Shown: positions 6,296 through 64,000 of the stretch, one piece after another
Layout of the letters: every line of letters begins with the position of its first letter
How positions within the stretch are numbered: position 1 is the stretch's first letter
NCBI GenBank assembly: GCA_026874595.1
Contig: CM049319.1
Coordinates: 41,767,973 to 41,831,972, forward strand
Source of the DNA: Sipunculus nudus
Taxonomy: Eukaryota; Annelida; Sipuncula; Golfingiida; Sipunculidae
Length of the DNA: 64,000 bases
Reading direction: 5' to 3'
Program-made: the position numbers and the translations under genes
Notes under the pieces: generated by a model
Database searches by the model: none
Told to the model about the DNA's origin: nothing
What the model saw: the letters and a program-made list of their open reading frames with translations, nothing else

Positions 6296-6389
6296 CGAAA
6301 CTGCTGTAGAAATGAATGAACATGATGTTTGCCAGGCCGATAGTAAAAGCATTCAAAGCATACAAACTGCTTATGACAAAGTTGTACTA

Positions 6390-21189: not shown

Positions 21190-21275
21190 AAAACGACGTT
21201 TGTAACAGCTTCTAAGTCGGGTAATGATGATCCTTAAAAGCTTCTTTCGCATCAGATAACGCCCATTTTTGCAGA
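21190..21275 (+). repeat. Chimeric divergent monomer segment, copy 1
   Basis: The normal sequence after AACAGCTTCTAA is replaced by GTCGGGTAATGATGATCC, then TTAAAAGCTTCTTTCGCATC and AGATAACGCCC before rejoining consensus at CATTTTTGCAG. The same replacement occurs once more at about 28185. It differs from consensus too much for simple drift and probably reflects a related but distinct monomer type. Confidence 0.8.
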
Positions 21276-21387
21276 AAACACGATCTTGTATTACGCGAAA
21301 ACCGAGCTGATTTCGGCCAAAACGACGTTTGTAACAGCTTCTAAATGGCCTAATGAAGCTTGTAAAACGCTTCTTTCGCAATTTAAA

Positions 21388-23440: not shown

Positions 23441-23639
23441 CGCAATTTAAATCGGCCATTTTTGCAGAAAACACGATCTTGTATTACGCGAAAACCGAGC
23501 TGATTTCGGCCAAAACGACGTTTGTAACAGCTTCTAAATGGCCTAATGAAGCTTGTAAAACGCTTCTTTCGCAATTTAAATCGGCCATTTTTGCAGAAAA
23601 CACGATCTTGTATTACGCGAAAACCGAGCTGATTTCGGC

Positions 23640-28715: not shown

Positions 28716-29215
28716 NNNNNNNNNNNNNNNNNNNNNNNNNNNNNNNNNNNNNNNNNNNNNNNNNNNNNNNNNNNNNNNNNNNNNNNNNNNNNNNNNNNNN
28801 NNNNNNNNNNNNNNNNNNNNNNNNNNNNNNNNNNNNNNNNNNNNNNNNNNNNNNNNNNNNNNNNNNNNNNNNNNNNNNNNNNNNNNNNNNNNNNNNNNNN
28901 NNNNNNNNNNNNNNNNNNNNNNNNNNNNNNNNNNNNNNNNNNNNNNNNNNNNNNNNNNNNNNNNNNNNNNNNNNNNNNNNNNNNNNNNNNNNNNNNNNNN
29001 NNNNNNNNNNNNNNNNNNNNNNNNNNNNNNNNNNNNNNNNNNNNNNNNNNNNNNNNNNNNNNNNNNNNNNNNNNNNNNNNNNNNNNNNNNNNNNNNNNNN
29101 NNNNNNNNNNNNNNNNNNNNNNNNNNNNNNNNNNNNNNNNNNNNNNNNNNNNNNNNNNNNNNNNNNNNNNNNNNNNNNNNNNNNNNNNNNNNNNNNNNNN
29201 NNNNNNNNNNNNNNN
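28716..29215. other. Assembly gap of 500 N
   Basis: Exactly 500 N, a conventional placeholder size. Both flanks are satellite: the left ends in AAATGGCCTAATGAA and the right starts at the same AAATGGCC position of the monomer. The real amount of missing satellite is unknown and could be large. Confidence 0.99.
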
Positions 29216-32200
29216 AAATGGCCTAATGAAGCTTGTAAAACGCTTCTTTCGCAATTTAAATCGGCCATTTTTGCAGAAAACACGATCTTGTATTACGCGA
29301 AAACCGAGCTGATTTCGGCGAAAACGACGTTTGTAACAGTTTCTAAATGGCCTAATGAAGCTTGTAAAACGCTTCTTTCGCAATTTAAATCGGCCATTTT
29401 TGCAGAAAACACGATCTTGTATTACGCGAAAACCGAGCTGATTTCGGCCAAAACGACGTTTGTAACAGCTTCTAAATGGCCTAATGAAGCTTGTAAAACG
29501 CTTCTTTCGCAATTTAAATCGGCCATTTTTGCAGAAAACACGATCTTGTATTACGCGAAAACCGAGCTGATTTCGGCGAAAACGACGTTTGTAACAGCTT
29601 CTAAATGGCCTAATGAAGCTTGTAAAACCCTTCTTTCGCAATTTAAATCGGCCATTTTTGCAGAAAACACGATCTTGTATTACGCGAAAACCGAGCTGAT
29701 TTCGGCGAAAACGACGTTTGTAACAGCTTCTAAATGGCCTAATGAAGCTTGTAAAAACGCTTCTTTCGCAATTTAAATCGGCCATTTTTGCAGAAAACAC
29801 GATCTTGTAATACGCGAAAACCGAGCTGATTTCGGGCAAAACGACGTTTGTAACAGCTTCTAAATGGCCTAATGAAGCTTGTAAAACGCTTCTTTCGCAA
29901 TTTAAATCGGCCATTTTTGCAGAAAACACGATCTTGTATTACGCGAAAACCGAGCTGATTTCGGCCAAAACGACGTTTGTAACAGCTTCTAAATGGCCTA
30001 ATAAAGCTTCTAAAACGCTTCTTTCGCAATTTAAATCGGCCATTTTTGCAGAAAACACGATCTTGTATTACGCGAAAACCGAGCTGATTTCGGCGAAAAC
30101 GACGTTTGTAACAGCTTCTAAATGGCCTAATGAAGCTTGTAAAACCCTTCTTTCGCAATTTAAATCGGCCATTTTTGCAGAAAACACGATCTTGTATTAC
30201 GCGAAAACCGAGCTGATTTCGGCGAAAACGACGTTTGTAACAGCTTCTAAATGGCCTAATGAAGCTTGTAAAACGCTTCTTTCGCAATTTAAATCGGCCA
30301 TTTTTGCAGAAAACACGATCTTGTATTACGCGAAAACCGAGCTGATTTCGGCGAAAACGACGTTTGTAACAGCTTCTAAATGGCCTAATGAAGCTTGTAA
30401 AACGCTTCTTTCGCAATTTAAATCGGCCATTTTTGCAGAAAACACGATCTTGTATTACGCGAAAACCGAGCTGATTTCGGCGAAAACGACGTTTGTAACA
30501 GCTTCTAAATGGCCTAATGAAGCTTGTAAAACGCTTCTTTCGCAATTTAAATCGGCCATTTTTGCAGAAAACACGATCTTGTATTACGCGAAAACCGAGC
30601 TGATTTCGGCCAAAACGACGTTTGTAACAGCTTCTAAATGGCCTAATGAAGCTTGTAAAACCCTTCTTTCGCAATTTAAATCGGCCATTTTTGCAGAAAA
30701 CACGATCTTGTATTACGCGAAAACCGAGCTGATTTCGGCCAAAACGACGTTTGTAACAGCTTCTAAATGGCCTAATGAAGCTTGTAAAACGCTTCTTTCG
30801 CAATTTAAATCGGCCATTTTTGCAGAAAACACGATCTTGTATTACGCGAAAACCGAGCTGATTTCGGCCAAAACGACGTTTGTAACAGCTTCTAAATGGT
30901 CTAATGAAGCTTGTAAAACGCTTCTTTCGCAATTTAAATCGGCCATTTTTGCAGAAAACACGATCTTGTATTACGCGAAAACCGAGCTGATTTCGGCGAA
31001 AACGACGTTTGTAACAGCTTCTAAATGGCCTAATGAAGCTTGTAAAACGCTTCTTTCGCAATTTAAATCGGCCATTTTTGCAGAAAACACGATCTTGTAT
31101 TACGCGAAAACCGAGCTGATTTCGGCGAAAACGACTTTTGTAACAGCTTCTAAATGGCCTAATGAAGCTTGTAAAACGCTTCTTTCGCAATTTAAATCGG
31201 CCATTTTTGCAGAAAACACGATCTTGTATTACGCGAAAACCGAGCTGATTTCGGCCAAAACGACGTTTGTAACAGCTTCTAAATGGCCTAATGAAGCTTG
31301 TAAAACGCTTCTTTCGCAATTTAAATCGGCCATTTTTGCAGAAAACACGATCTTGTATTACGCGAAAACCGAGCTGATTTCGGCGAAAACGACTTTTGTA
31401 ACAGCTTCTAAATGGCCTAATGAAGCTTGTAAAACGCTTCTTTCGCAATTTAAATCGGCCATTTTTGCAGAAAACACGATCTTGTATTACGCGAAAACCG
31501 AGCTGATTTCGGCCAAAACGACGTTTGTAACAGCTTCTAAATGGCCTAATGAAGCTTGTAAAACGCTTCTTTCGCAATTTAAATCGGCCATTTTTGCAGA
31601 AAACACGATCTTGTATTACGCGAAAACCGAGCTGATTTCGGCGAAAACGACGTTTGTAACAGCTTCTAAATGGTCTAATGAAGCTTGTAAAACGCTTCTT
31701 TCGCAATTTAAATCGGCCATTTTTGCAGAAAACACGATCTTGTATTACGCGAAAACCGAGCTGATTTCGGCCAAAACGACGTTTGTAACAGCTTCTAAAT
31801 GGCCTAATGAAGCTTGTAAAACCCTTCTTTCGCAATTTAAATCGGCCATTTTTTGCAGAAAACACGATCTTGTATTACGCGAAAACCGAGCTGATTTCGG
31901 CGAAAACGACTTTTGTAACAGCTTCTAAATGGCCTAATGAAGCTTGTAAAACGCTTCTTTCGCAATTTAAATCGGCCATTTTTGCAGAAAACACGATCTT
32001 GTATTACGCGAAAACCGAGCTGATTTCGGCCAAAACGACGTTTGTAACAGCTTCTAAATGGCCTAATGAAGCTTGTAAAACGCTTCTTTCGCAATTTAAA
32101 TCGGCCATTTTTGCAGAAAACACGATCTTGTATTACGCGAAAACCGAGCTGATTTCGGCCAAAACGACGTTTGTAACAGCTTCTAAATGGCCTAATGAAG

Positions 32201-35220: not shown

Positions 35221-38200
35221 ATCTTGTATTACGCGAAAACCGAGCTGATTTCGGCGAAAACGACGTTTGTAACAGCTTCTAAATGGCCTAATGAAGCTTG
35301 TAAAACGCTTCTTTCGCAATTTAAATCGGCCATTTTTGCAGAAAACACGATCTTGTATTACGCGAAAACCGAGCTGATTTCGGCCAAAACGACGTTTGTA
35401 ACAGCTTCTAAATGGCCTAATGAAGCTTGTAAAACCCTTCTTTCGCAATTTAAATCGGCCATTTTTGCAGAAAACACGATCTTGTATTACGCGAAAACCG
35501 AGCTGATTTCGGCCAAAACGACGTTTGTAACAGCTTCTAAATGGCCTAATGAAGCTTGTAAAACGCTTCTTTCGCAATTTAAATCGGCCATTTTTGCAGA
35601 AAACACGATCTTGTATTACGCGAAAACCGAGCTGATTTCAACGAAAACGACTTTTGTAACAGCTTCTAAATGGCCTAATGAAGCTTGTAAAACGCTTCTT
35701 TCGCAATTTAAATCGGCCATTTTTGCAGAAAACACGATCTTGTATTACGCGAAAACCGAGCTGATTTCGGCCAAAACGACGTTTGTAACAGCTTCTAATG
35801 GCCTAATGAAGCTTGTAAAACGCTTCTTACGCAATTTAAATCGGCCATTTTTGCAGAAAACACGATCTTGTATTACGCGAAAACCGAGCTGATTTCGGCG
35901 AAAACGACGTTTGTAACATCTTCTAAATGGCCTAATGAAGCTTGTAAAACGCTTCTTTCGCAATTTAAATCGGCCATTTTTGCAGAAAACACGATCTTGT
36001 ATTACGCGAAAACCGAGCTGATTTCGGCCAAAACGACGTTTGTAACAGCTTCTAAATGGCCTAATGAAGCTTGTAAAACGCTTCTTTCGCAATTTAAATC
36101 GGCCATTTTTGCAGAAAACACGATCTTGTATTACGCGAAAACCGAGCTGATTTCGGCGAAAACGACGTTTGTAACAGCTTCTAAATGGTCTAATGAAGCT
36201 TGTAAAACGCTTCTTTCGCAATTTAAATCGGCCATTTTTGCAGAAAACACGATCTTGTATTACGCGAAAAGCGAGCTGATTTCGGCGAAAACGACGTTTG
36301 TAACAGCTTCTAAATGGCCTAATGAAGCTTGTAAAACCCTTCTTTCGCAATTTAAATCGGCCATTTTTGCAGAAAACACGATCTTGTATTACGCGAAAAC
36401 CGAGCTGATTTCGGCGAAAACGACTTTTGTAACAGCTTCTAAATGGCCTAATGAAGCTTGTAAAACGCTTCTTTCGCAATTTAAATCGGCCATTTTTGCA
36501 GAAAACACGATCTTGTATTACGCGAAAACCGAGCTGATTTCGGCCAAAACGACGTTTGTAACAGCTTCTAAATGGCCTAATGAAGCTTGTAAAACGCTTC
36601 TTTCGCAATTTAAATCGGCCATTTTTGCAGAAAACACGATCTTGTATTACGCGAAAACCGAGCTGATTTCGGCCAAAACGACGTTTGTAACAGCTTCTAA
36701 ATGGCCTAATGAAGCTTGTAAAACGCTTCTTTCGCAATTTAAATCGGCCATTTTTGCAGAAAACACGATCTTGTATTACGCGAAAACCGAGCTGATTTCG
36801 GCGAAAACGACGTTTGTAACAGCTTCTAAATGGCCTAATGAAGCTTGTAAAACGCTTCTTTCGCAATTTAAATCGGCCATTTTTGCAGAAAACACGATCT
36901 TGTATTACGCGAAAACCGAGCTGATTTCGGCCAAAACGACGTTTGTAACAGCTTCTAAATGGCCTAATGAAGCTTGTAAAACGCTTCTTTCGCAATTTAA
37001 ATCGGCCATTTTTGCAGAAAACACGATCTTGTATTACGCGAAAACCGAGCTGATTTCGGCGAAAACGACGTTTGTAACAGTTTCTAAATGGCCTAATGAA
37101 GCTTGTAAAACGCTTCTTTCGCAATTTAAATCGGCCATTTTTGCAGAAAACACGATCTTGTATTACGCGAAAACCGAGCTGATTTCGGCCAAAACGACGT
37201 TTGTAACAGCTTCTAAATGGCCTAATGAAGCTTGTAAAACGCTTCTTTCGCAATTTAAATCGGCCATTTTTGCAGAAAACACGATCTTGTATTACGCGAA
37301 AACCGAGCTGATTTCGGCGAAAACGACGTTTGTAACAGCTTCTAAATGGCCTAATGAAGCTTGTAAAACCCTTCTTTCGCAATTTAAATCGGCCATTTTT
37401 GCAGAAAACACGATCTTGTATTACGCGAAAACCGAGCTGATTTCGGCGAAAACGACGTTTGTAACAGCTTCTAAATGGCCTAATGAAGCTTGTAAAACGC
37501 TTCTTTCGCAATTTAAATCGGCCATTTTTGCAGAAAACACGATCTTGTAATACGCGAAAACCGAGCTGATTTCGGGCAAAACGACGTTTGTAACAGCTTC
37601 TAAATGGCCTAATGAAGCTTGTAAAACGCTTCTTTCGCAATTTAAATCGGCCATTTTTGCAGAAAACACGATCTTGTATTACGCGAAAACCGAGCTGATT
37701 TCGGCCAAAACGACGTTTGTAACAGCTTCTAAATGGCCTAATAAAGCTTCTAAAACGCTTCTTTCGCAATTTAAATCGGCCATTTTTGCAGAAAACACGA
37801 TCTTGTATTACGCGAAAACCGAGCTGATTTCGGCGAAAACGACGTTTGTAACAGCTTCTAAATGGCCTAATGAAGCTTGTAAAACCCTTCTTTCGCAATT
37901 TAAATCGGCCATTTTTGCAGAAAACACGATCTTGTATTACGCGAAAACCGAGCTGATTTCGGCGAAAACGACGTTTGTAACAGCTTCTAAATGGCCTAAT
38001 GAAGCTTGTAAAACGCTTCTTTCGCAATTTAAATCGGCCATTTTTGCAGAAAACACGATCTTGTATTACGCGAAAACCGAGCTGATTTCGGCGAAAACGA
38101 CGTTTGTAACAGCTTCTAAATGGCCTAATGAAGCTTGTAAAACGCTTCTTTCGCAATTTAAATCGGCCATTTTTGCAGAAAACACGATCTTGTATTACGC

Positions 38201-41200
38201 GAAAACCGAGCTGATTTCGGCGAAAACGACGTTTGTAACAGCTTCTAAATGGCCTAATGAAGCTTGTAAAACCCTTCTTTCGCAATTTAAATCGGCCATT
38301 TTTGCAGAAAACACGATCTTGTATTACGCGAAAACCGAGCTGATTTCGGCGAAAACGACGTTTGTAACAGCTTCTAAATGGCCTAATGAAGCTTGTAAAA
38401 CGCTTCTTTCGCAATTTAAATCGGCCATTTTTGCAGAAAACACGATCTTGTATTACGCGAAAACCGAGCTGATTTCGGCGAAAACGACGTTTGTAACAGC
38501 TTCTAAATGGCCTAATGAAGCTTGTAAAACGCTTCTTTCGCAATTTAAATCGGCCATTTTTGCAGAAAACACGATCTTGTATTACGCGAAAACCGAGCTG
38601 ATTTCGGCGAAAACGACTTTTGTAACAGCTTCTAAATGGCCTAATGAAGCTTGTAAAACGCTTCTTTCGCAATTTAAATCGGCCATTTTTGCAGAAAACA
38701 CGATCTTGTATTACGCGAAAACCGAGCTGATTTCGGCCAAAACGACGTTTGTAACAGCTTCTAAATGGCCTAATGAAGCTTGTAAAACGCTTCTTACGCA
38801 ATTTAAATCGGCCATTTTTGCAGAAAACACGATCTTGTATTACGCGAAAACCGAGCTGATTTCGGCGAAAACGACGTTTGTAACATCTTCTAAATGGCCT
38901 AATGAAGCTTGTAAAACGCTTCTTTCGCAATTTAAATCGGCCATTTTTGCAGAAAACACGATCTTGTATTACGCGAAAAGCGAGCTGATTTCGGCCAAAA
39001 CGACGTTTGTAACAGCTTCTAAATGGCCTAATGAAGCTTGTAAAACGCTTCTTTCGCAATTTAAATCGGCCATTTTTGCAGAAAACACGATCTTGTATTA
39101 CGCGAAAACCGAGCTGATTTCGGCGAAAACGACGTTTGTAACAGCTTCTAAATGGCCTAATGAAGCTTGTAAAACCCTTCTTTCGCAATTTAAATCGGCC
39201 ATTTTTGCAGAAAACACGATCTTGTATTACGCGAAAACCGAGCTGATTTCGGCCAAAACGACGTTTGTAACAGCTTCTAAATGGCCTAATGAAGCTTGTA
39301 AAACGCTTCTTTCGCAATTTAAATCGGCCATTTTTGCAGAAAACACGATCTTGTATTACGCGAAAACCGAGCTGATTTCGGCGAAAACGACGTTTGTAAC
39401 AGCTTCTAAATGGTCTAATGAAGCTTGTAAAACGCTTCTTTCGCAATTTAAATCGGCCATTTTTGCAGAAAACACGATCTTGTATTACGCGAAAAGCGAG
39501 CTGATTTCGGCGAAAACGACGTTTGTAACAGCTTCTAAATGGCCTAATGAAGCTTGTAAAACCCTTCTTTCGCAATTTAAATCGGCCATTTTTGCAGAAA
39601 ACACGATCTTGTATTACGCGAAAACCGAGCTGATTTCGGCGAAAACGACTTTTGTAACAGCTTCTAAATGGCCTAATGAAGCTTGTAAAACGCTTCTTTC
39701 GCAATTTAAATCGGCCATTTTTGCAGAAAACACGATCTTGTATTACGCGAAAACCGAGCTGATTTCGGCCAAAACGACGTTTGTAACAGCTTCTAAATGG
39801 CCTAATGAAGCTTGTAAAACGCTTCTTTCGCAATTTAAATCGGCCATTTTTGCAGAAAACACGATCTTGTATTACGCGAAAACCGAGCTGATTTCGGCCA
39901 AAACGACGTTTGTAACAGCTTCTAAATGGCCTAATGAAGCTTGTAAAACGCTTCTTTCGCAATTTAAATCGGCCATTTTTGCAGAAAACACGATCTTGTA
40001 TTACGCGAAAACCGAGCTGATTTCGGCGAAAACGACGTTTGTAACAGCTTCTAAATGGCCTAATGAAGCTTGTAAAACGCTTCTTTCGCAATTTAAATCG
40101 GCCATTTTTGCAGAAAACACGATCTTGTATTACGCGAAAACCGAGCTGATTTCGGCCAAAACGACGTTTGTAACAGCTTCTAAATGGCCTAATGAAGCTT
40201 GTAAAACGCTTCTTTCGCAATTTAAATCGGCCATTTTTGCAGAAAACACGATCTTGTATTACGCGAAAACCGAGCTGATTTCGGCGAAAACGACGTTTGT
40301 AACAGTTTCTAAATGGCCTAATGAAGCTTGTAAAACGCTTCTTTCGCAATTTAAATCGGCCATTTTTGCAGAAAACACGATCTTGTATTACGCGAAAACC
40401 GAGCTGATTTCGGCCAAAACGACGTTTGTAACAGCTTCTAAATGGCCTAATGAAGCTTGTAAAACGCTTCTTTCGCAATTTAAATCGGCCATTTTTGCAG
40501 AAAACACGATCTTGTATTACGCGAAAACCGAGCTGATTTCGGCGAAAACGACGTTTGTAACAGCTTCTAAATGGCCTAATGAAGCTTGTAAAACCCTTCT
40601 TTCGCAATTTAAATCGGCCATTTTTGCAGAAAAACACGATCTTGTATTACGCGAAAACCGAGCTGATTTCGGCCAAAACGACGTTTGTAACAGCTTCTAA
40701 ATGGCCTAATAAAGCTTCTAAAACGCTTCTCTTCGCAATTAAATCGGCCATTTTTGCAGAAAACACGATCTTGTATTACGCGAAAACCGAGCTGATTTCG
40801 GCGAAAACGACGTTTGTAACAGCTTCTAAATGGCCTAATGAAGCTTGTAAAACCCTTCTTTCGCAATTTAAATCGGCCATTTTTGCAGAAAACACGATCT
40901 TGTATTACGCGAAAACCGAGCTGATTTCGGCGAAAACGACGTTTGTAACAGCTTCTAAATGGCCTAATGAAGCTTGTAAAACGCTTCTTTCGCAATTTAA
41001 ATCGGCCATTTTTGCAGAAAACACGATCTTGTATTACGCGAAAACCGAGCTGATTTCGGCGAAAACGACGTTTGTAACAGCTTCTAAATGGCCTAATGAA
41101 GCTTGTAAAACGCTTCTTTCGCAATTTAAATCGGCCATTTTTGCAGAAAACACGATCTTGTATTACGCGAAAACCGAGCTGATTTCGGCGAAAACGACTT

Positions 41201-44200
41201 TTGTAACAGCTTCTAAATGGCCTAATGAAGCTTGTAAAACGCTTCTTTCGCAATTTAAATCGGCCATTTTTGCAGAAAACACGATCTTGTATTACGCGAA
41301 AACCGAGCTGATTTCGGCCAAAACGACGTTTGTAACAGCTTCTAAATGCCTAATGAAGCTTGTAAAACGCTTCTTACGCAATTTAAATCGGCCATTTTTG
41401 CAGAAAACACGATCTTGTATTACGCGAAAACCGAGCTGATTTCGGCGAAAACGACGTTTGTAACATCTTCTAAATGGCCTAATGAAGCTTGTAAAACGCT
41501 TCTTTCGCAATTTAAATCGGCCATTTTTGCAGAAAACACGATCTTGTATTACGCGAAAAGCGAGCTGATTTCGGCCAAAACGACGTTTGTAACAGCTTCT
41601 AAATGGCCTAATGAAGCTTGTAAAACGCTTCTTTCGCAATTTAAATCGGCCATTTTTGCAGAAAACACGATCTTGTATTACGCGAAAACCGAGCTGATTT
41701 CGGCGAAAACGACGTTTGTAACAGCTTCTAAATGGCCTAATGAAGCTTGTAAAACCCTTCTTTCGCAATTTAAATCGGCCATTTTTGCAGAAAACACGAT
41801 CTTGTATTACGCGAAAACCGAGCTGATTTCGGCCAAAACGACGTTTGTAACAGCTTCTAAATGGCCTAATGAAGCTTGTAAAACGCTTCTTTCGCAATTT
41901 AAATCGGCCATTTTTGCAGAAAACACGATCTTGTATTACGCGAAAACCGAGCTGATTTCGGCGAAAACGACGTTTGTAACAGCTTCTAAATGGTCTAATG
42001 AAGCTTGTAAAACGCTTCTTTCGCAATTTAAATCGGCCATTTTTGCAGAAAACACGATCTTGTATTACGCGAAAAGCGAGCTGATTTCGGCGAAAACGAC
42101 GTTTGTAACAGCTTCTAAATGGCCTAATGAAGCTTGTAAAACCCTTCTTTCGCAATTTAAATCGGCCATTTTTGCAGAAAACACGATCTTGTATTACGCG
42201 AAAACCGAGCTGATTTCGGCGAAAACGACTTTTGTAACAGCTTCTAAATGGCCTAATGAAGCTTGTAAAACGCTTCTTTCGCAATTTAAATCGGCCATTT
42301 TTGCAGAAAACACGATCTTGTATTACGCGAAAACCGAGCTGATTTCGGCCAAAACGACGTTTGTAACAGCTTCTAAATGGCCTAATGAAGCTTGTAAAAC
42401 GCTTCTTTCGCAATTTAAATCGGCCATTTTTGCAGAAAACACGATCTTGTATTACGCGAAAACCGAGCTGATTTCGGCCAAAACGACGTTTGTAACAGCT
42501 TCTAAATGGCCTAATGAAGCTTGTAAAACGCTTCTTTCGCAATTTAAATCGGCCATTTTTGCAGAAAACACGATCTTGTATTACGCGAAAACCGAGCTGA
42601 TTTCGGCGAAAACGACGTTTGTAACAGCTTCTAAATGGCCTAATGAAGCTTGTAAAACGCTTCTTTCGCAATTTAAATCGGCCATTTTTGCAGAAAACAC
42701 GATCTTGTATTACGCGAAAACCGAGCTGATTTCGGCCAAAACGACGTTTGTAACAGCTTCTAAATGGCCTAATGAAGCTTGTAGAAACGCTTCTTTCGCA
42801 ATTTAAATCGGCCATTTTTGCAGAAAACACGATCTTGTATTACGCGAAAACCGAGCTGATTTCGGCGAAAACGACGTTTGTAACAGTTTCTAAATGGCCT
42901 AATGAAGCTTGTAAAACGCTTCTTTCGCAATTTAAATCGGCCATTTTTGCAGAAAACACGATCTTGTATTACGCGAAAACCGAGCTGATTTCGGCCAAAA
43001 CGACGTTTGTAACAGCTTCTAAATGGCCTAATGAAGCTTGTAAAACGCTTCTTTCGCAATTTAAATCGGCCATTTTTGCAGAAAACACGATCTTGTATTA
43101 CGCGAAAACCGAGCTGATTTCGGCGAAAACGACGTTTGTAACAGCTTCTAAATGGCCTAATGAAGCTTGTAAAACCCTTCTTTCGCAATTTAAATCGGCC
43201 ATTTTTGCAGAAAACACGATCTTGTATTACGCGAAAACCGAGCTGATTTCGGCCAAAACGACGTTTGTAACAGCTTCTAAATGGCCTAATAAAGCTTCTA
43301 AAACGCTTCTTTCGCAATTTAAATCGGCCATTTTTGCAGAAAACACGATCTTGTATTACGCGAAAACCGAGCTGATTTCGGCGAAAACGACGTTTGTAAC
43401 AGCTTCTAAATGGCCTAATGAAGCTTGTAAAACCCTTCTTTCGCAATTTAAATCGGCCATTTTTGCAGAAAACACGATCTTGTATTACGCGAAAACCGAG
43501 CTGATTTCGGCGAAAACGACGTTTGTAACAGCTTCTAAATGGCCTAATGAAGCTTGTAAAACGCTCTTTCGCAATTTAAATCGGCCATTTTTGCAGAAAA
43601 CACGATCTTGTATTACGCGAAACCGAGCTGATTTCGGCGAAAACGACGTTTGTAACAGCTTCTAAATGGCCTAATGAAGCTTGTAAAACGCTTCTTTCGC
43701 AATTTAAATCGGCCATTTTTGCAGAAAACACGATCTTGTATTACGCGAAAACCGAGCTGATTTCGGCCAAAACGACGTTTGTAACAGCTTCTAAATGGCC
43801 TAATGAAGCTTGTAAAACCCTTCTTTCGCAATTTAAATCGGCCATTTTTGCAGAAAACACGATCTTGTATTACGCGAAAACCGAGCTGATTTCGGCCAAA
43901 ACGACGTTTGTAACAGCTTCTAAATGGCCTAATGAAGCTTGTAAAACGCTTCTTTCGCAATTTAAATCGGCCATTTTTTGCAGAAAACACGATCTTGTAT
44001 TACGCGAAAACCGAGCTGATTTCGGCCAAAACGACGTTTGTAACAGCTTCTAAATGGTCTAATGAAGCTTGTAAAACGCTTCTTTCGCAATTTAAATCGG
44101 CCATTTTTGCAGAAAACACGATCTTGTATTACGCGAAAACCGAGCTGATTTCGGCGAAAACGACGTTTGTAACAGCTTTTAAATGGCCTAATGAAGCTTG

Positions 44201-49159: not shown

Positions 49160-52100
49160 TTGTATTACGCGAAAACCGAGCTGATTTCGGCGAAAACGAC
49201 GTTTGTAACAGCTTCTAAATGGCCTAATGAAGCTTGTAAAACCCTTCTTTCGCAATTTAAATCGGCCATTTTTGCAGAAAACACGATCTTGTATTACGCG
49301 AAAACCGAGCTGATTTCGGCCAAAACGACGTTTGTAACAGCTTCTAAATGGCCTAATGAAGCTTGTAAAACGCTTCTTTCGCAATTTAAATCGGCCATTT
49401 TTGCAGAAAACACGATCTTGTATTACGCGAAAACCGAGCTGATTTCGGCGAAAACGACGTTTGTAACAGCTTCTAAATGGTCTAATGAAGCTTGTAAAAC
49501 GCTTCTTTCGCAATTTAAATCGGCCATTTTTGCAGAAAACACGATCTTGTATTACGCGAAAAGCGAGCTGATTTCGGCGAAAACGACGTTTGTAACAGCT
49601 TCTAAATGGCCTAATGAAGCTTGTAAAACCCTTCTTTCGCAATTTAAATCGGCCATTTTTGCAGAAAACACGATCTTGTATTACGCGAAAACCGAGCTGA
49701 TTTCGGCGAAAACGACTTTTGTAACAGCTTCTAAATGGCCTAATGAAGCTTGTAAAACGCTTCTTTCGCAATTTAAATCGGCCATTTTTGCAGAAAACAC
49801 GATCTTGTATTACGCGAAAACCGAGCTGATTTCGGCCAAAACGACGTTTGTAACAGCTTCTAAATGGCCTAATGAAGCTTGTAAAACGCTTCTTTCGCAA
49901 TTTAAATCGGCCATTTTTGCAGAAAACACGATCTTGTATTACGCGAAAACCGAGCTGATTTCGGCCAAAACGACGTTTGTAACAGCTTCTAAATGGCCTA
50001 ATGAAGCTTGTAAAACGCTTCTTTCGCAATTTAAATCGGCCATTTTTGCAGAAAACACGATCTTGTATTACGCGAAAACCGAGCTGATTTCGGCGAAAAC
50101 GACGTTTGTAACAGCTTCTAAATGGCCTAATGAAGCTTGTAAAACGCTTCTTTCGCAATTTAAATCGGCCATTTTTGCAGAAAACACGATCTTGTATTAC
50201 GCGAAAACCGAGCTGATTTCGGCCAAAACGACGTTTGTAACAGCTTCTAAATGGCCTAATGAAGCTTGTAAAACGCTTCTTTCGCAATTTAAATCGGCCA
50301 TTTTTGCAGAAAACACGATCTTGTATTACGCGAAAACCGAGCTGATTTCGGCGAAAACGACGTTTGTAACAGTTTCTAAATGGCCTAATGAAGCTTGTAA
50401 AACGCTTCTTTCGCAATTTAAATCGGCCATTTTTGCAGAAAACACGATCTTGTATTACGCGAAAACCGAGCTGATTTCGGCCAAAACGACGTTTGTAACA
50501 GCTTCTAAATGGCCTAATGAAGCTTGTAAAACGCTTCTTTCGCAATTTAAATCGGCCATTTTTGCAGAAAACACGATCTTGTATTACGCGAAAACCGAGC
50601 TGATTTCGGCGAAAACGACGTTTGTAACAGCTTCTAAATGGCCTAATGAAGCTTGTAAAACCCTTCTTTCGCAATTTAAATCGGCCATTTTTGCAGAAAA
50701 CACGATCTTGTATTACGCGAAAACCGAGCTGATTTCGGCGAAAACGACGTTTGTAACAGCTTCTAAATGGCCTAATGAAGCTTGTAAAACGCTTCTTTCG
50801 CAATTTAAATCGGCCATTTTTGCAGAAAACACGATCTTGTAATACGCGAAAACCGAGCTGATTTCGGGCAAAACGACGTTTGTAACAGCTTCTAAATGGC
50901 CTAATGAAGCTTGTAAAACGCTTCTTTCGCAATTTAAATCGGCCATTTTTGCAGAAAACACGATCTTGTATTACGCGAAAACCGAGCTGATTTCGGCCAA
51001 AACGACGTTTGTAACAGCTTCTAAATGGCCTAATAAAGCTTCTAAAACGCTTCTTTCGCAATTTAAATCGGCCATTTTTGCAGAAAACACGATCTTGTAT
51101 TACGCGAAAACCGAGCTGATTTCGGCGAAAACGACGTTTGTAACAGCTTCTAAATGGCCTAATGAAGCTTGTAAAACCCTTCTTTCGCAATTTAAATCGG
51201 CCATTTTTGCAGAAAACACGATCTTGTATTACGCGAAAACCGAGCTGATTTCGGCGAAAACGACGTTTGTAACAGCTTCTAAATGGCCTAATGAAGCTTG
51301 TAAAACGCTTCTTTCGCAATTTAAATCGGCCATTTTTGCAGAAAACACGATCTTGTATTACGCGAAAACCGAGCTGATTTCGGCGAAAACGACGTTTGTA
51401 ACAGCTTCTAAATGGCCTAATGAAGCTTGTAAAACGCTTCTTTCGCAATTTAAATCGGCCATTTTTGCAGAAAACACGATCTTGTATTACGCGAAAACCG
51501 AGCTGATTTCGGCGAAAACGACGTTTGTAACAGCTTCTAAATGGCCTAATGAAGCTTGTAAAACGCTTCTTTCGCAATTTAAATCGGCCATTTTTGCAGA
51601 AAACACGATCTTGTATTACGCGAAAACCGAGCTGATTTCGGCCAAAACGACGTTTGTAACAGCTTCTAAATGGCCTAATGAAGCTTGTAAAACCCTTCTT
51701 TCGCAATTTAAATCGGCCATTTTTGCAGAAAACACGATCTTGTATTACGCGAAAACCGAGCTGATTTCGGCGAAAACGACGTTTGTAACAGCTTCTAAAT
51801 GGCCTAATGAAGCTTGTAAAACCCTTCTTTCGCAATTTAAATCGGCCATTTTTGCAGAAAACACGATCTTGTATTACGCGAAAACCGAGCTGATTTCGGC
51901 GAAAACGACTTTTGTAACAGCTTCTAAATGGCCTAATGAAGCTTGTAAAACGCTTCTTTCGCAATTTAAATCGGCCATTTTTGCAGAAAACACGATCTTG
52001 TATTACGCGAAAACCGAGCTGATTTCGGCCAAAACGACGTTTGTAACAGCTTCTAAATGGCCTAATGAAGCTTGTAAAACGCTTCTTTCGCAATTTAAAT

Positions 52101-55100
52101 CGGCCATTTTTGCAGAAAACACGATCTTGTATTACGCGAAAACCGAGCTGATTTCGGCGAAAACGACGTTTGTAACATCTTCTAAATGGCCTAATGAAGC
52201 TTGTAAAACGCTTCTTTCGCAATTTAAATCGGCCATTTTTGCAGAAAACACGATCTTGTATTACGCGAAAAGCGAGCTGATTTCGGCCAAAACGACGTTT
52301 GTAACAGCTTCTAAATGGCCTAATGAAGCTTGTAAAACGCTTCTTTCGCAATTTAAATCGGCCATTTTTGCAGAAAACACGATCTTGTATTACGCGAAAA
52401 CCGAGCTGATTTCGGCGAAAACGACGTTTGTAACAGCTTCTAAATGGCCTAATGAAGCTTGTAAAACCCTTCTTTCGCAATTTAAATCGGCCATTTTTGC
52501 AGAAAACACGATCTTGTATTACGCGAAAACCGAGCTGATTTCGGCCAAAACGACGTTTGTAACAGCTTCTAAATGGCCTAATGAAGCTTGTAAAACGCTT
52601 CTTTCGCAATTTAAATCGGCCATTTTTGCAGAAAACACGATCTTGTATTACGCGAAAACCGAGCTGATTTCGGCCAAAACGACGTTTGTAACAGCTTCTA
52701 AATGGCCTAATGAAGCTTGTAAAACGCTTCTTTCGCAATTTAAATCGGCCATTTTTGCAGAAAACACGATCTTGTATTACGCGAAAACCGAGCTGATTTC
52801 GGCCAAAACGACGTTTGTAACAGTTTCTAAATGGCCTAATGAAGCTTGTAAAACGCTTCTTTCGCAATTTAAATCGGCCATTTTTGCAGAAAACACGATC
52901 TTGTATTACGCGAAAACCGAGCTGATTTCGGCCAAAACGACGTTTGTAACAGCTTCTAAATGGCCTAATGAAGCTTGTAAAACGCTTCTTTCGCAATTTA
53001 AATCGGCCATTTTTGCAGAAAACACGATCTTGTATTACGCGAAAACCGAGCTGATTTCGGCGAAAACGACGTTTGTAACAGCTTCTAAATGGCCTAATGA
53101 AGCTTGTAAAACCCTTCTTTCGCAATTTAAATCGGCCATTTTTGCAGAAAACACGATCTTGTATTACGCGAAAACCGAGCTGATTTCGGCCAAAACGACG
53201 TTTGTAACAGCTTCTAAATCGCCTAATGAAGCTTGTAAAACGCTTCTTTCGCAATTTAAATCGGCCATTTTTGCAGAAAACACGATCTTGTAATACGCGA
53301 AAACCGAGCTGATTTCGGGCAAAACGACGTTTGTAACAGCTTCTAAATGGCCTAATGAAGCTTGTAAAACGCTTCTTTCGCAATTTAAATCGGCCATTTT
53401 TGCAGAAAACACGATCTTGTATTACGCGAAAACCGAGCTGATTTCGGCCAAAACGACGTTTGTAACAGCTTCTAAATGGCCTAATGAAGCTTGTAAAACG
53501 CTTCTTTCGCAATTTAAATCGGCCATTTTTGCAGAAAACACGATCTTGTAATACGCGAAAACCGAGCTGATTTCGGGCAAAACGACGTTTGTAACAGCTT
53601 CTAAATGGCCTAATGAAGCTTGTAAAACGCTTCTTTCGCAATTTAAATCGGCCATTTTTGCAGAAAACACGATCTTGTATTACGCGAAAACCGAGCTGAT
53701 TTCGGCCAAAACGACGTTTGTAACAGCTTCTAAATGGCCTAATAAAGCTTCTAAAACGCTTCTTTCGCAATTTAAATCGGCCATTTTTGCAGAAAACACG
53801 ATCTTGTATTACGCGAAAACCGAGCTGATTTCGGCGAAAACGACGTTTGTAACAGCTTCTAAATGGCCTAATGAAGCTTGTAAAACCCTTCTTTCGCAAT
53901 TTAAATCGGCCATTTTTGCAGAAAACACGATCTTGTATTACGCGAAAACCGAGCTGATTTCGGCGAAAACGACGTTTGTAACAGCTTCTAAATGGCCTAA
54001 TGAAGCTTGTAAAACGCTTCTTTCGCAATTTAAATCGGCCATTTTTGCAGAAAACACGATCTTGTATTACGCGAAAACCGAGCTGATTTCGGCGAAAACG
54101 ACGTTTGTAACAGCTTCTAAATGGCCTAATGAAGCTTGTAAAACGCTTCTTTCGCAATTTAAATCGGCCATTTTTGCAGAAAACACGATCTTGTATTACG
54201 CGAAAACCGAGCTGATTTCGGCGAAAACGACGTTTGTAACAGCTTCTAAATGGCCTAATGAAGCTTGTAAAACGCTTCTTTCGCAATTTAAATCGGCCAT
54301 TTTTGCAGAAAACACGATCTTGTATTACGCGAAAACCGAGCTGATTTCGGCCAAAACGACGTTTGTAACAGCTTCTAAATGGCCTAATGAAGCTTGTAAA
54401 ACCCTTCTTTCGCAATTTAAATCGGCCATTTTTGCAGAAAACACGATCTTGTATTACGCGAAAACCGAGCTGATTTCTGCGAAAACGACTTTTGTAACAG
54501 CTTCTAAATGGCCTAATGAAGCTTGTAAAACGCTTCTTTCGCAATTTAAATCGGCCATTTTTGCAGAAAACACGATCTTGTATTACGCGAAAACCGAGCT
54601 GATTTCGGCCAAAACGACGTTTGTAACAGCTTCTAAATGGCCTAATGAAGCTTGTAAAACGCTTCTTTCGCAATTTAAATCGGCCATTTTTGCAGAAAAC
54701 ACGATCTTGTATTACGCGAAAACCGAGCTGATTTCGGCGAAAACGACGTTTGTAACATCTTCTAAATGGCCTAATGAAGCTTGTAAAACGCTTCTTTCGC
54801 AATTTAAATCGGCCATTTTTGCAGAAAACACGATCTTGTATTACGCGAAAAGCGAGCTGATTTCGGCCAAAACGACGTTTGTAACAGCTTCTAAATGGCC
54901 TAATGAAGCTTGTAAAACGCTTCTTTCGCAATTTAAATCGGCCATTTTTGCAGAAAACACGATCTTGTATTACGCGAAAACCGAGCTGATTTCGGCGAAA
55001 ACGACGTTTGTAACAGCTTCTAAATGGCCTAATGAAGCTTGTAAAACGCTTCTTTCGCAATTTAAATCGGCCATTTTTGCAGAAAACACGATCTTGTATT

Positions 55101-56641
55101 ACGCGAAAACCGAGCTGATTTCGGCCAAAACGACGTTTGTAACAGCTTCTAAATGGCCTAATGAAGCTTGTAAAACGCTTCTTTCGCAATTTAAATCGGC
55201 CATTTTTGCAGAAAACACGATCTTGTATTACGCGAAAACCGAGCTGATTTCGGCGAAAACGACGTTTGTAACAGCTTCTAAATGGTCTAATGAAGCTTGT
55301 AAAACGCTTCTTTCGCAATTTAAATCGGCCATTTTTGCAGAAAACACGATCTTGTATTACGCGAAAAGCGAGCTGATTTCGGCGAAAACGACGTTTGTAA
55401 CAGCTTCTAAATGGCCTAATGAAGCTTGTAAAACGCTTCTTTCGCAATTTAAATCGGCCATTTTTGCAGAAAACACGATCTTGTATTACGCGAAAACCGA
55501 GCTGATTTCGGCGAAAACGACGTTTGTAACAGCTTCTAAATGGTCTAATGAAGCTTGTAAAACGCTTCTTTCGCAATTTAAATCGGCCATTTTTGCAGAA
55601 AACACGATCTTGTATTACGCGAAAAGCGAGCTGATTTCGGCGAAAACGACGTTTGTAACAGCTTCTAAATGGCCTAATGAAGCTTGTAAAACGCTTCTTT
55701 CGCAATTTAAATCGGCCATTTTTGCAGAAAACACGATCTTGTATTACGCGAAAACCGAGCTGATTTCGGCGAAAACGACTTTTGTAACAGCTTCTAAATG
55801 GCCTAATGAAGCTTGTAAAACGCTTCTTTCGCAATTTAAATCGGCCATTTTTGCAGAAAACACGATCTTGTATTACGCGAAAACCGAGCTGATTTCGGCG
55901 AAAACGACTTTTGTAACAGCTTCTAAATGGCCTAATGAAGCTTGTAAAACGCTTCTTTCGCAATTTAAATCGGCCATTTTTGCAGAAAACACGATCTTGT
56001 ATTACGCGAAAACCGAGCTGATTTCGGCGAAAACGACGTTTGTAACAGCTTCTAAATGGCCTAATGAAGCTTGTAAAACGCTTCTTTCGCAATTTAAATC
56101 GGCCATTTTTGCAGAAAACACGATCTTGTATTACGCGAAAACCGAGCTGATTTCGGCCAAAACGACGTTTGTAACAGCTTCTAAATGGCCTAATGAAGCT
56201 TGTAAAACGCTTCTTTCGCAATTTAAATCGGCCATTTTTGCAGAAAACACGATCTTGTATTACGCGAAAACCGAGCTGATTTCGGGCAAAACGACGTTTG
56301 TAACAGCTTCTAAATGGCCTAATGAAGCTTGTAAAACCCTTCTTTCGCAATTTAAATCGGCCATTTTTGCAGAAAACACGATCTTGTATTACGCGAAAAC
56401 CGAGCTGATTTCGGCGAAAACGACGTTTGTAACAGCTTCTAAATGGCCTAATGAAGCTTGTAAAACGCTTCTTTCGCAATTTAAATCGGCCATTTTTGCA
56501 GAAAACACGATCTTGTAATACGCGAAAACCGAGCTGATTTCGGGCAAAACGACGTTTGTAACAGCTTCTAAATGGCCTAATGAAGCTTGTAAAACGCTTC
56601 TTTCGCAATTTAAATCGGCCATTTTTGCAGAAAACACGATC
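49160..56641 (+). repeat. 58-monomer higher-order repeat, copy 1 (7,482 bp)
   Basis: Marker monomers at 50842 and 53293 (the TTGTAATACGC variant) and at 51033 and 53742 (the CTAATAAAGCTTCT variant) all recur exactly 7,482 bp downstream. The order of other variants between them matches too. This copy has three monomers more than the next: a 258-bp (two-monomer) step repeated at 55281 and 55539, and one extra AACGACTTTT monomer. Confidence 0.85.
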
Positions 56642-59600
56642 TTGTATTACGCGAAAACCGAGCTGATTTCGGCCAAAACGACGTTTGTAACAGCTTCTAA
56701 ATGGCCTAATGAAGCTTGTAAAACGCTTCTTTCGCAATTTAAATCGGCCATTTTTGCAGAAAACACGATCTTGTATTACGCGAAAACCGAGCTGATTTCG
56801 GCCAAAACGACGTTTGTAACAGCTTCTAAATGGCCTAATGAAGCTTGTAAAACGCTTCTTTCGCAATTTAAATCGGCCATTTTTGCAGAAAACACGATCT
56901 TGTATTACGCGAAAACCGAGCTGATTTCGGCGAAAACGACGTTTGTAACAGCTTCTAAATGGTCTAATGAAGCTTGTAAAACGCTTCTTTCGCAATTTAA
57001 ATCGGCCATTTTTGCAGAAAACACGATCTTGTATTACGCGAAAAGCGAGCTGATTTCGGCGAAAACGACGTTTGTAACAGCTTCTAAATGGCCTAATGAA
57101 GCTTGTAAAACCCTTCTTTCGCAATTTAAATCGGCCATTTTTGCAGAAAACACGATCTTGTATTACGCGAAAACCGAGCTGATTTCGGCGAAAACGACTT
57201 TTGTAACAGCTTCTAAATGGCCTAATGAAGCTTGTAAAACGCTTCTTTCGCAATTTAAATCGGCCATTTTTGCAGAAAACACGATCTTGTATTACGCGAA
57301 AACCGAGCTGATTTCGGCCAAAACGACGTTTGTAACAGCTTCTAAATGGCCTAATGAAGCTTGTAAAACGCTTCTTTCGCAATTTAAATCGGCCATTTTT
57401 GCAGAAAACACGATCTTGTATTACGCGAAAACCGAGCTGATTTCGGCCAAAACGACGTTTGTAACAGCTTCTAAATGGCCTAATGAAGCTTGTAAAACGC
57501 TTCTTTCGCAATTTAAATCGGCCATTTTTGCAGAAAACACGATCTTGTATTACGCGAAAACCGAGCTGATTTCGGCGAAAACGACGTTTGTAACAGCTTC
57601 TAAATGGCCTAATGAAGCTTGTAAAACGCTTCTTTCGCAATTTAAATCGGCCATTTTTGCAGAAAACACGATCTTGTATTACGCGAAAACCGAGCTGATT
57701 TCGGCCAAAACGACGTTTGTAACAGCTTCTAAATGGCCTAATGAAGCTTGTAAAACGCTTCTTTCGCAATTTAAATCGGCCATTTTTGCAGAAAACACGA
57801 TCTTGTATTACGCGAAAACCGAGCTGATTTCGGCGAAAACGACGTTTGTAACAGTTTCTAAATGGCCTAATGAAGCTTGTAAAACGCTTCTTTCGCAATT
57901 TAAATCGGCCATTTTTGCAGAAAACACGATCTTGTATTACGCGAAAACCGAGCTGATTTCGGCCAAAACGACGTTTGTAACAGCTTCTAAATGGCCTAAT
58001 GAAGCTTGTAAAACGCTTCTTTCGCAATTTAAATCGGCCATTTTTGCAGAAAACACGATCTTGTATTACGCGAAAACCGAGCTGATTTCGGCGAAAACGA
58101 CGTTTGTAACAGCTTCTAAATGGCCTAATGAAGCTTGTAAAACCCTTCTTTCGCAATTTAAATCGGCCATTTTTGCAGAAAACACGATCTTGTATTACGC
58201 GAAAACCGAGCTGATTTCGGCGAAAACGACGTTTGTAACAGCTTCTAAATGGCCTAATGAAGCTTGTAAAACGCTTCTTTCGCAATTTAAATCGGCCATT
58301 TTTGCAGAAAACACGATCTTGTAATACGCGAAAACCGAGCTGATTTCGGGCAAAACGACGTTTGTAACAGCTTCTAAATGGCCTAATGAAGCTTGTAAAA
58401 CGCTTCTTTCGCAATTTAAATCGGCCATTTTTGCAGAAAACACGATCTTGTATTACGCGAAAACCGAGCTGATTTCGGCCAAAACGACGTTTGTAACAGC
58501 TTCTAAATGGCCTAATAAAGCTTCTAAAACGCTTCTTTCGCAATTTAAATCGGCCATTTTTGCAGAAAACACGATCTTGTATTACGCGAAAACCGAGCTG
58601 ATTTCGGCGAAAACGACGTTTGTAACAGCTTCTAAATGGCCTAATGAAGCTTGTAAAACCCTTCTTTCGCAATTTAAATCGGCCATTTTTGCAGAAAACA
58701 CGATCTTGTATTACGCGAAAACCGAGCTGATTTCGGCGAAAACGACGTTTGTAACAGCTTCTAAATGGCCTAATGAAGCTTGTAAAACGCTTCTTTCGCA
58801 ATTTAAATCGGCCATTTTTGCAGAAAACACGATCTTGTATTACGCGAAAACCGAGCTGATTTCGGCGAAAACGACGTTTGTAACAGCTTCTAAATGGCCT
58901 AATGAAGCTTGTAAAACGCTTCTTTCGCAATTTAAATCGGCCATTTTTGCAGAAAACACGATCTTGTATTACGCGAAAACCGAGCTGATTTCGGCGAAAA
59001 CGACGTTTGTAACAGCTTCTAAATGGCCTAATGAAGCTTGTAAAACGCTTCTTTCGCAATTTAAATCGGCCATTTTTGCAGAAAACACGATCTTGTATTA
59101 CGCGAAAACCGAGCTGATTTCGGCCAAAACGACGTTTGTAACAGCTTCTAAATGGCCTAATGAAGCTTGTAAAACCCTTCTTTCGCAATTTAAATCGGCC
59201 ATTTTTGCAGAAAACACGATCTTGTATTACGCGAAAACCGAGCTGATTTCGGCGAAAACGACGTTTGTAACAGCTTCTAAATGGCCTAATGAAGCTTGTA
59301 AAACCCTTCTTTCGCAATTTAAATCGGCCATTTTTGCAGAAAACACGATCTTGTATTACGCGAAAACCGAGCTGATTTCGGCGAAAACGACTTTTGTAAC
59401 AGCTTCTAAATGGCCTAATGAAGCTTGTAAAACGCTTCTTTCGCAATTTAAATCGGCCATTTTTGCAGAAAACACGATCTTGTATTACGCGAAAACCGAG
59501 CTGATTTCGGCCAAAACGACGTTTGTAACAGCTTCTAAATGGCCTAATGAAGCTTGTAAAACGCTTCTTTCGCAATTTAAATCGGCCATTTTTGCAGAAA

Positions 59601-62600
59601 ACACGATCTTGTATTACGCGAAAACCGAGCTGATTTCGGCGAAAACGACGTTTGTAACATCTTCTAAATGGCCTAATGAAGCTTGTAAAACGCTTCTTTC
59701 GCAATTTAAATCGGCCATTTTTGCAGAAAACACGATCTTGTATTACGCGAAAAGCGAGCTGATTTCGGCCAAAACGACGTTTGTAACAGCTTCTAAATGG
59801 CCTAATGAAGCTTGTAAAACGCTTCTTTCGCAATTTAAATCGGCCATTTTTGCAGAAAACACGATCTTGTATTACGCGAAAACCGAGCTGATTTCGGCGA
59901 AAACGACGTTTGTAACAGCTTCTAAATGGCCTAATGAAGCTTGTAAAACCCTTCTTTCGCAATTTAAATCGGCCATTTTTGCAGAAAACACGATCTTGTA
60001 TTACGCGAAAACCGAGCTGATTTCGGCCAAAACGACGTTTGTAACAGCTTCTAAATGGCCTAATGAAGCTTGTAAAACGCTTCTTTCGCAATTTAAATCG
60101 GCCATTTTTGCAGAAAACACGATCTTGTATTACGCGAAAACCGAGCTGATTTCGGCCAAAACGACGTTTGTAACAGCTTCTAAATGGCCTAATGAAGCTT
60201 GTAAAACGCTTCTTTCGCAATTTAAATCGGCCATTTTTGCAGAAAACACGATCTTGTATTACGCGAAAACCGAGCTGATTTCGGCCAAAACGACGTTTGT
60301 AACAGTTTCTAAATGGCCTAATGAAGCTTGTAAAACGCTTCTTTCGCAATTTAAATCGGCCATTTTTGCAGAAAACACGATCTTGTATTACGCGAAAACC
60401 GAGCTGATTTCGGCCAAAACGACGTTTGTAACAGCTTCTAAATGGCCTAATGAAGCTTGTAAAACGCTTCTTTCGCAATTTAAATCGGCCATTTTTGCAG
60501 AAAACACGATCTTGTATTACGCGAAAACCGAGCTGATTTCGGCGAAAACGACGTTTGTAACAGCTTCTAAATGGCCTAATGAAGCTTGTAAAACCCTTCT
60601 TTCGCAATTTAAATCGGCCATTTTTGCAGAAAACACGATCTTGTATTACGCGAAAACCGAGCTGATTTCGGCCAAAACGACGTTTGTAACAGCTTCTAAA
60701 TGGCCTAATGAAGCTTGTAAAACGCTTCTTTCGCAATTTAAATCGGCCATTTTTGCAGAAAACACGATCTTGTAATACGCGAAAACCGAGCTGATTTCGG
60801 GCAAAACGACGTTTGTAACAGCTTCTAAATGGCCTAATGAAGCTTGTAAAACGCTTCTTTCGCAATTTAAATCGGCCATTTTTGCAGAAAACACGATCTT
60901 GTATTACGCGAAAACCGAGCTGATTTCGGCCAAAACGACGTTTGTAACAGCTTCTAAATGGCCTAATGAAGCTTGTAAAACGCTTCTTTCGCAATTTAAA
61001 TCGGCCATTTTTGCAGAAAACACGATCTTGTAATACGCGAAAACCGAGCTGATTTCGGGCAAAACGACGTTTGTAACAGCTTCTAAATGGCCTAATGAAG
61101 CTTGTAAAACGCTTCTTTCGCAATTTAAATCGGCCATTTTTGCAGAAAACACGATCTTGTATTACGCGAAAACCGAGCTGATTTCGGCCAAAACGACGTT
61201 TGTAACAGCTTCTAAATGGCCTAATAAAGCTTCTAAAACGCTTCTTTCGCAATTTAAATCGGCCATTTTTGCAGAAAACACGATCTTGTATTACGCGAAA
61301 ACCGAGCTGATTTCGGCGAAAACGACGTTTGTAACAGCTTCTAAATGGCCTAATGAAGCTTGTAAAACCCTTCTTTCGCAATTTAAATCGGCCATTTTTG
61401 CAGAAAACACGATCTTGTATTACGCGAAAACCGAGCTGATTTCGGCGAAAACGACGTTTGTAACAGCTTCTAAATGGCCTAATGAAGCTTGTAAAACGCT
61501 TCTTTCGCAATTTAAATCGGCCATTTTTGCAGAAAACACGATCTTGTATTACGCGAAAACCGAGCTGATTTCGGCGAAAACGACGTTTGTAACAGCTTCT
61601 AAATGGCCTAATGAAGCTTGTAAAACGCTTCTTTCGCAATTTAAATCGGCCATTTTTGCAGAAAACACGATCTTGTATTACGCGAAAACCGAGCTGATTT
61701 CGGCGAAAACGACGTTTGTAACAGCTTCTAAATGGCCTAATGAAGCTTGTAAAACGCTTCTTTCGCAATTTAAATCGGCCATTTTTGCAGAAAACACGAT
61801 CTTGTATTACGCGAAAACCGAGCTGATTTCGGCCAAAACGACGTTTGTAACAGCTTCTAAATGGCCTAATGAAGCTTGTAAAACCCTTCTTTCGCAATTT
61901 AAATCGGCCATTTTTGCAGAAAACACGATCTTGTATTACGCGAAAACCGAGCTGATTTCTGCGAAAACGACTTTTGTAACAGCTTCTAAATGGCCTAATG
62001 AAGCTTGTAAAACGCTTCTTTCGCAATTTAAATCGGCCATTTTTGCAGAAAACACGATCTTGTATTACGCGAAAACCGAGCTGATTTCGGCCAAAACGAC
62101 GTTTGTAACAGCTTCTAAATGGCCTAATGAAGCTTGTAAAACGCTTCTTTCGCAATTTAAATCGGCCATTTTTGCAGAAAACACGATCTTGTATTACGCG
62201 AAAACCGAGCTGATTTCGGCGAAAACGACGTTTGTAACATCTTCTAAATGGCCTAATGAAGCTTGTAAAACGCTTCTTTCGCAATTTAAATCGGCCATTT
62301 TTGCAGAAAACACGATCTTGTATTACGCGAAAAGCGAGCTGATTTCGGCCAAAACGACGTTTGTAACAGCTTCTAAATGGCCTAATGAAGCTTGTAAAAC
62401 GCTTCTTTCGCAATTTAAATCGGCCATTTTTGCAGAAAACACGATCTTGTATTACGCGAAAACCGAGCTGATTTCGGCGAAAACGACGTTTGTAACAGCT
62501 TCTAAATGGCCTAATGAAGCTTGTAAAACGCTTCTTTCGCAATTTAAATCGGCCATTTTTGCAGAAAACACGATCTTGTATTACGCGAAAACCGAGCTGA

Positions 62601-64000
62601 TTTCGGCCAAAACGACGTTTGTAACAGCTTCTAAATGGCCTAATGAAGCTTGTAAAACGCTTCTTTCGCAATTTAAATCGGCCATTTTTGCAGAAAACAC
62701 GATCTTGTATTACGCGAAAACCGAGCTGATTTCGGCGAAAACGACGTTTGTAACAGCTTCTAAATGGTCTAATGAAGCTTGTAAAACGCTTCTTTCGCAA
62801 TTTAAATCGGCCATTTTTGCAGAAAACACGATCTTGTATTACGCGAAAAGCGAGCTGATTTCGGCGAAAACGACGTTTGTAACAGCTTCTAAATGGCCTA
62901 ATGAAGCTTGTAAAACGCTTCTTTCGCAATTTAAATCGGCCATTTTTGCAGAAAACACGATCTTGTATTACGCGAAAACCGAGCTGATTTCGGCGAAAAC
63001 GACTTTTGTAACAGCTTCTAAATGGCCTAATGAAGCTTGTAAAACGCTTCTTTCGCAATTTAAATCGGCCATTTTTGCAGAAAACACGATCTTGTATTAC
63101 GCGAAAACCGAGCTGATTTCGGCGAAAACGACGTTTGTAACAGCTTCTAAATGGCCTAATGAAGCTTGTAAAACGCTTCTTTCGCAATTTAAATCGGCCA
63201 TTTTTGCAGAAAACACGATCTTGTATTACGCGAAAACCGAGCTGATTTCGGCCAAAACGACGTTTGTAACAGCTTCTAAATGGCCTAATGAAGCTTGTAA
63301 AACGCTTCTTTCGCAATTTAAATCGGCCATTTTTGCAGAAAACACGATCTTGTATTACGCGAAAACCGAGCTGATTTCGGGCAAAACGACGTTTGTAACA
63401 GCTTCTAAATGGCCTAATGAAGCTTGTAAAACCCTTCTTTCGCAATTTAAATCGGCCATTTTTGCAGAAAACACGATCTTGTATTACGCGAAAACCGAGC
63501 TGATTTCGGCGAAAACGACGTTTGTAACAGCTTCTAAATGGCCTAATGAAGCTTGTAAAACGCTTCTTTCGCAATTTAAATCGGCCATTTTTGCAGAAAA
63601 CACGATCTTGTAATACGCGAAAACCGAGCTGATTTCGGGCAAAACGACGTTTGTAACAGCTTCTAAATGGCCTAATGAAGCTTGTAAAACGCTTCTTTCG
63701 CAATTTAAATCGGCCATTTTTGCAGAAAACACGATCTTGTATTACGCGAAAACCGAGCTGATTTCGGCCAAAACGACGTTTGTAACAGCTTCTAAATGGC
63801 CTAATGAAGCTTGTAAAACGCTTCTTTCGCAATTTAAATCGGCCATTTTTGCAGAAAACACGATCTTGTATTACGCGAAAACCGAGCTGATTTCGGCGAA
63901 AACGACGTTTGTAACAGCTTCTAAATGGCCTAATGAAGCTTGTAAAACGCTTCTTTCGCAATTTAAATCGGCCATTTTTGCAGAAAACACGATCTTGTAT
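56642..64000 (+). repeat. 58-monomer higher-order repeat, copy 2 (three monomers shorter, cut by window end)
   Basis: Markers at 58324, 60775, 58515 and 61224 match copy 1 at exactly 7,482 bp. One noticed difference is ATCGCCTAAT at about 53218 in copy 1 against ATGGCCTAAT here. After about 62.8 kb the offset falls to 7,095 bp because three monomers are absent. Identity is otherwise close to complete by eye, implying a recent duplication. Confidence 0.85.

Follow-up and report, generated by a model that had tools for sequence, protein, structure and literature searches.

The recurrence of sequence markers at exactly 58 × 129 bp in a satellite array of Sipunculus nudus raises the question of whether the array is built from a very long higher-order repeat (HOR), resembling human alpha satellite, as a preliminary description of the locus had proposed, or whether the recurrence has another origin. 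The window (the whole stretch of 64,000 nucleotides that was analysed) is part of contig C14 (68.3 Mb) in an assembly of 1.43 Gb with 17 chromosome-size contigs. A further 100 kb beyond the window was added to the analysis, and the array extends to about window-relative 153 kb.

The array is made up of five contigs (A to E) separated by four 500-N gaps (at window-relative 28716, 68014, 103947 and 128372). It was cut into monomers by wraparound alignment to the consensus, and each lag was scored by its best run of matching monomer types. Contig A (18052-28715, plus strand), which forms the left array edge, contains about 83 monomers according to TRF and wraparound monomer decomposition. A 500-N gap of nominal size (28716-29215) separates it from contig B, which starts at 29216 (plus strand), fills the window to 64000 and runs on to window-relative 68013, with 301 monomers in all.

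A 58-monomer block in contig B (copy 1, 49244-56725, 7,482 bp) is directly abutted by a second copy (copy 2, 56726-63820, 7,095 bp, 55 monomers), both on the plus strand. Global alignment of the two revealed one substitution in 7,095 aligned bases (C at 53220, G at 60702, plus strand) and one 387-bp gap. At a lag of 7,482 bp, the offset at which a match had been predicted, 49244-55521 pairs with 56726-63003 with a single mismatch, at 53220, and the region originally proposed (49160-64000) is correct to within 0.2 kb. When monomers were compared as type symbols, 58 was the best lag in contig B, with 46 of 47 consecutive monomers matching (log-odds score 99.3, compared with ≤ 15.7 in 100 monomer shuffles); thus, far more recurs at this spacing than the four marker variants from which it was first recognized. 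The match between copy 1 and copy 2 is far above the background identity of in-register 1.5-kb stretches of the array, which averages 98.61% (sd 0.22) and reaches 99.33% at most.

The length difference between the copies is due to three monomers (387 bp, 55394-55780, plus strand) extra in copy 1 and absent from copy 2, as placed by the gap position and the monomer list (B201-B206 against B259-B261), a site that is ambiguous within a few monomers. The three-monomer order in copy 1 suggests two local duplications, one of 2 monomers and one of 1 monomer. The single order is seen in older copies of the core, the excess in copy 1 apparently being derived and the change apparently postdating the block duplication. 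One-base indels were absent from both copies and from monomers about 156-280, making the duplicated stretch one of the cleanest in contig B.

No third 58-monomer copy was found in contig B, whose array runs past the window. The sequence after 63820 shows 98.8% identity to the starts of the copies, which is background, and a 14-monomer core reappears once more, at lag 64, past the window end. With two copies and no third, this is a single block duplication and not an array of repeated units. The 58 monomers of the block comprise 16 types, with a mean difference of 1.43% between monomers and at most 7 differing bases out of 129. As variants common to both copies occur in the same order and at constant spacing, beyond chance, the structure is an HOR in the broad sense and can be classed loosely as a higher-order block duplication within a satellite. 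The inference of recent block-wise amplification is supported.

The block is one of several in a mosaic. Tandem-like block duplications in contigs A to E have lags of 5, 11, 20, 31 and 58 monomers, and there are many displaced blocks besides. At the array edge, five monomers are tandemly duplicated (18140-19407, plus strand; 634 bp per copy, with one 118-bp monomer in each), and a tandem duplication of a block of about 20 monomers is found at 38247-43665 (plus strand), where monomers B70-B91 match B90-B111 at 22 of 22 positions. Lag 20 also gives the strongest autocorrelation (z 7.1) in contig B outside, and before, the 58-monomer block. Successive occurrences of a G13A+G20C marker are spaced 60, 23, 20, 60, 21, 37, 21 and 43 monomers apart which, together with the lag-20 peak, indicates a basic step of about 20 monomers and shows that neither 58 nor 60 is the period of the array. 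The 58-monomer block itself holds two marker cores 21 monomers apart, the next core following 37 further on; its origin is nested, with the marker core spaced in steps of about 20 monomers.

Two links of 60 monomers had also been put forward. The markers on which they were based exist, but exact matching is confined to 779 bp for the first (29754-30532 with 37494-38272, plus strand), a short common core, and to 389 bp for the second (43177-43565 with 50921-51309, plus strand). Such short matches provide no evidence of a 60-monomer unit, and a constant unit of that size was rejected.

Long block duplications also occur elsewhere. In contig E, past the window, a 31-monomer block is duplicated exactly over 4,013 bp (window-relative 130490-134502), with its indels shared. 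The monomers of this unit diverge by about 8%, far more than elsewhere, placing contig E nearer to classical HOR structure. C16, which has its own monomer variants, carries an independent 59-monomer duplication (C16:31672335-31677913) whose partner lies 7,609 bp downstream, with two mismatches in 5,579 bp at that lag. The C14 array is therefore not alone in having long block duplications. A preferred length of about 7.5 kb for exchange or looping is a very improbable explanation of the similar sizes on C14 (58 monomers) and C16 (59), compared with random draws.

Since so few monomer types are present (29 in contig B, two of which make up over half of it), it might be asked whether a few common variants simply recur by chance at 58 monomers. 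The probability of this is negligible: no shuffle approached the observed score (99.3 against 15.7), 46 of 47 monomers match, and one mismatch over 7.1 kb contrasts with a background identity of 98.6%, so that shuffles and base-level identity already refute it.

A more serious concern is that a single 7.5-kb stretch was entered twice during assembly, or that reads of two alleles were joined. The contigs of this array are just 24-39 kb long between 500-N gaps. Orientation is plus in contigs A, B and E but minus in contigs C and D, and the flips coincide exactly with 500-N gaps (window-relative 68014-68513 and 128372-128871, both past the window, and also C150:119094-119593). Real inversions within the array were rejected, as the orientation switches checked all fall on such gaps; scaffolding inside the satellite is accordingly unreliable, and contigs C and D may be misoriented in the scaffold. 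Within the block pairs of contigs B, C and D, no one-base indel occurs in both partners (0 shared, 82 unshared), which makes these indels probable consensus errors, many of them near the duplication, whereas in contig E all are shared (23 shared, 0 unshared). The exact 4,013-bp duplication in contig E might itself be taken as a sign of an artefact. Against this, neither copy of the 58-monomer block contains a gap, the copies are distinguishable by a substitution and an indel of three monomers, and a block of similar length was found independently on C16. The extra monomers of copy 1 look derived through small local duplications. The lack of one-base indels in the block, the single-base difference and the three-monomer change, which looks derived, together argue against a simple assembler repeat, and an assembly error behind the 58-monomer duplication is unlikely.

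Less likely still is that the two copies are the visible part of a true multi-copy 58-monomer HOR array, most of which lies within unassembled gaps. The contig is flanked by gaps of nominal size, contig D also contains the marker core, and 58mer HOR arrays are known from the orangutan Y chromosome (PMC12428378). However, the sequence immediately after copy 2 is already at the background level of identity to the copy starts, the 156 upstream monomers step by 20 without a 58-monomer block, and contig D has lags of 72, 79, 78 and 20 with no 58-monomer block.

We therefore consider it probable that the locus records one tandem duplication, of recent date, in which a 58-monomer (7,482-bp) block was copied within a chromosome-specific subarray of a probably centromeric 129-bp satellite. 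Pairing 58 monomers out of register, with a sister chromatid or at a restarted replication fork, would have given rise to the block, probably through unequal exchange or break-induced replication (BIR), two routes that these data do not separate. Models of both processes predict nested block duplications of variable size in near-homogeneous arrays (PMC8997354). With monomers about 98.6% alike, pairing is possible at any in-register offset, so that block sizes vary; 58 would then be one draw from a spectrum of block sizes and not a fixed unit. Any role of this DNA may be as a putative satellite platform for the centromere, and the 58-monomer duplication itself would need no function.

The genomic distribution of the satellite bears on that role. 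Searching the assembly with a 36-mer of the monomer (≤ 3 mismatches) gave 16,853 matches, compared with none for a reversed-pattern control, which corresponds to at least about 2.2 Mb of 129-bp satellite. When positions were sampled with rare-variant patterns, the satellite was found on 15 of the 17 chromosome-size contigs, mostly at a single interior site each, and on several unplaced contigs. The sites (in Mb) are C1 65.2-65.8, C2 68.3-68.8, C3 43.6-45.0, C4 28.2 and 35.0, C5 64.8, C6 43.2, C7 47.7, C9 50.0-50.3, C10 62.5, C11 0.05, C12 40.8-41.0, C13 44.9-45.2, C14 41.8-41.9, C16 31.7 and C17 26.2; pattern sampling gave no satellite match on C8 or C15. The two sites on C4, about 7 Mb apart, fit the single-site pattern poorly. 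On C11 the satellite (C11:43001-53000) is about 45 kb from the contig end, unlike the interior sites elsewhere, which would fit an acrocentric chromosome or, alternatively, a contig placed wrongly.

Most sampled arrays carry G20C, G61C and C125G relative to the C14 consensus, to which C16 adds G118C and T126C; these variants are chromosome-specific and diagnostic. The presence of one main interior site on most chromosomes makes the 129-bp repeat a candidate centromeric satellite, and by position and distribution it is probably one. The 129-bp monomer has no match to the CENP-B box core (best 7 of 9 positions, with ≥ 7 reached in 390 of 2,000 shuffles). A TTAGGG array was absent from the nine contig-end pieces examined, one of which (the C14 start) begins with Ns.

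The monomer forms no stable hairpin (single-strand structure z -1.09 and -0.55). A 236-aa open frame crosses the array on the minus strand (18180-18890); it is likely to be a chance product, arising because 129 is divisible by 3, and no viral relative was found for the open frame of the repeat. Several elements flank the array. A broken LINE-type retrotransposon with endonuclease and reverse transcriptase fragments is located at 216-3307, and a Helitron-like element at 5343-10233 has DUF6570 and PIF1-type helicase fragments and a weak OTU match below the cut-off. Just ahead of the array edge, AAATTTAGGAAGCAAAA-type short repeats are present in opposite orientations (16518-16593 and 17840-18019).

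No description of a 129-bp satellite was found in the papers searched. In alpha-satellite HORs, monomers within a unit are ~20-40% divergent and copies of the unit are < 5% apart (PMC12385485). The C14 copies, one substitution in 7,095 bases and a 387-bp gap apart, are well inside the second limit, but the monomers within the unit (mean difference 1.43%, maximum 7 of 129 bases) are far from the first and, by the 5% rule of the alpha-satellite field, nearly all 58 would count as one type. The monomer itself also differs (129 bp compared with ~171 bp, and no exact CENP-B core). The likeness to human alpha satellite first suggested is thus partial. It holds for the copying of blocks of variant monomers jointly at near identity, for the repeated types inside the block (the 'cascading' type), for the chromosome-specific sequences and for the centromere-like position on C14. 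It does not hold for copy number, which is only two, or for monomer divergence.

A close parallel is the 52mer HOR of human chromosome 21 alpha satellite, which has two copies, 0.2% apart, beside shorter HORs (PMC12385485). Both it and the C14 block are very long, occur in exactly two tandem copies, lie beside shorter HORs and are described at the assembly level; the C14 copies are about 0.014% apart. In contrast, monomers of the human unit are 17.7% apart on average, compared with 1.43% on C14, and its 171-bp sequence is unrelated. The 58mer 'cascading' superHOR of the orangutan Y (PMC12428378) has an equal number of monomers and repeated monomer types within its unit, but it is present in 310 copies (67 according to the abstract) rather than two, has 44 types rather than 16 and is built from an unrelated monomer. 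A 59mer HOR is also known from orangutan 13 (PMC11276891). In the satellite macro-dyads of Tribolium madens (PMC13081366), as on C14, subarrays in both orientations lie inside one region, although the C14 switches checked fall on 500-N gaps and may be scaffolding choices.

Agreement is also close with the unequal-exchange and BIR models (PMC8997354), with which the array shares blocks of variable length, nested duplications and a homogenised core with a more divergent array edge; only species and monomer differ, and no difference of consequence was found. The type of structure is already known, and the C14 block is a well-preserved example of satellite-array growth. It shows block amplification clearly in a satellite that has no relationship to primate alpha satellite, and the analysis puts forward the 129-bp repeat, with its chromosome-specific variants, as a candidate centromeric satellite. 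The case also shows that, where an array is nearly homogeneous, a very long 'HOR unit' can be the product of a one-off duplication; therefore, unit length alone does not indicate alpha-satellite-like organisation.
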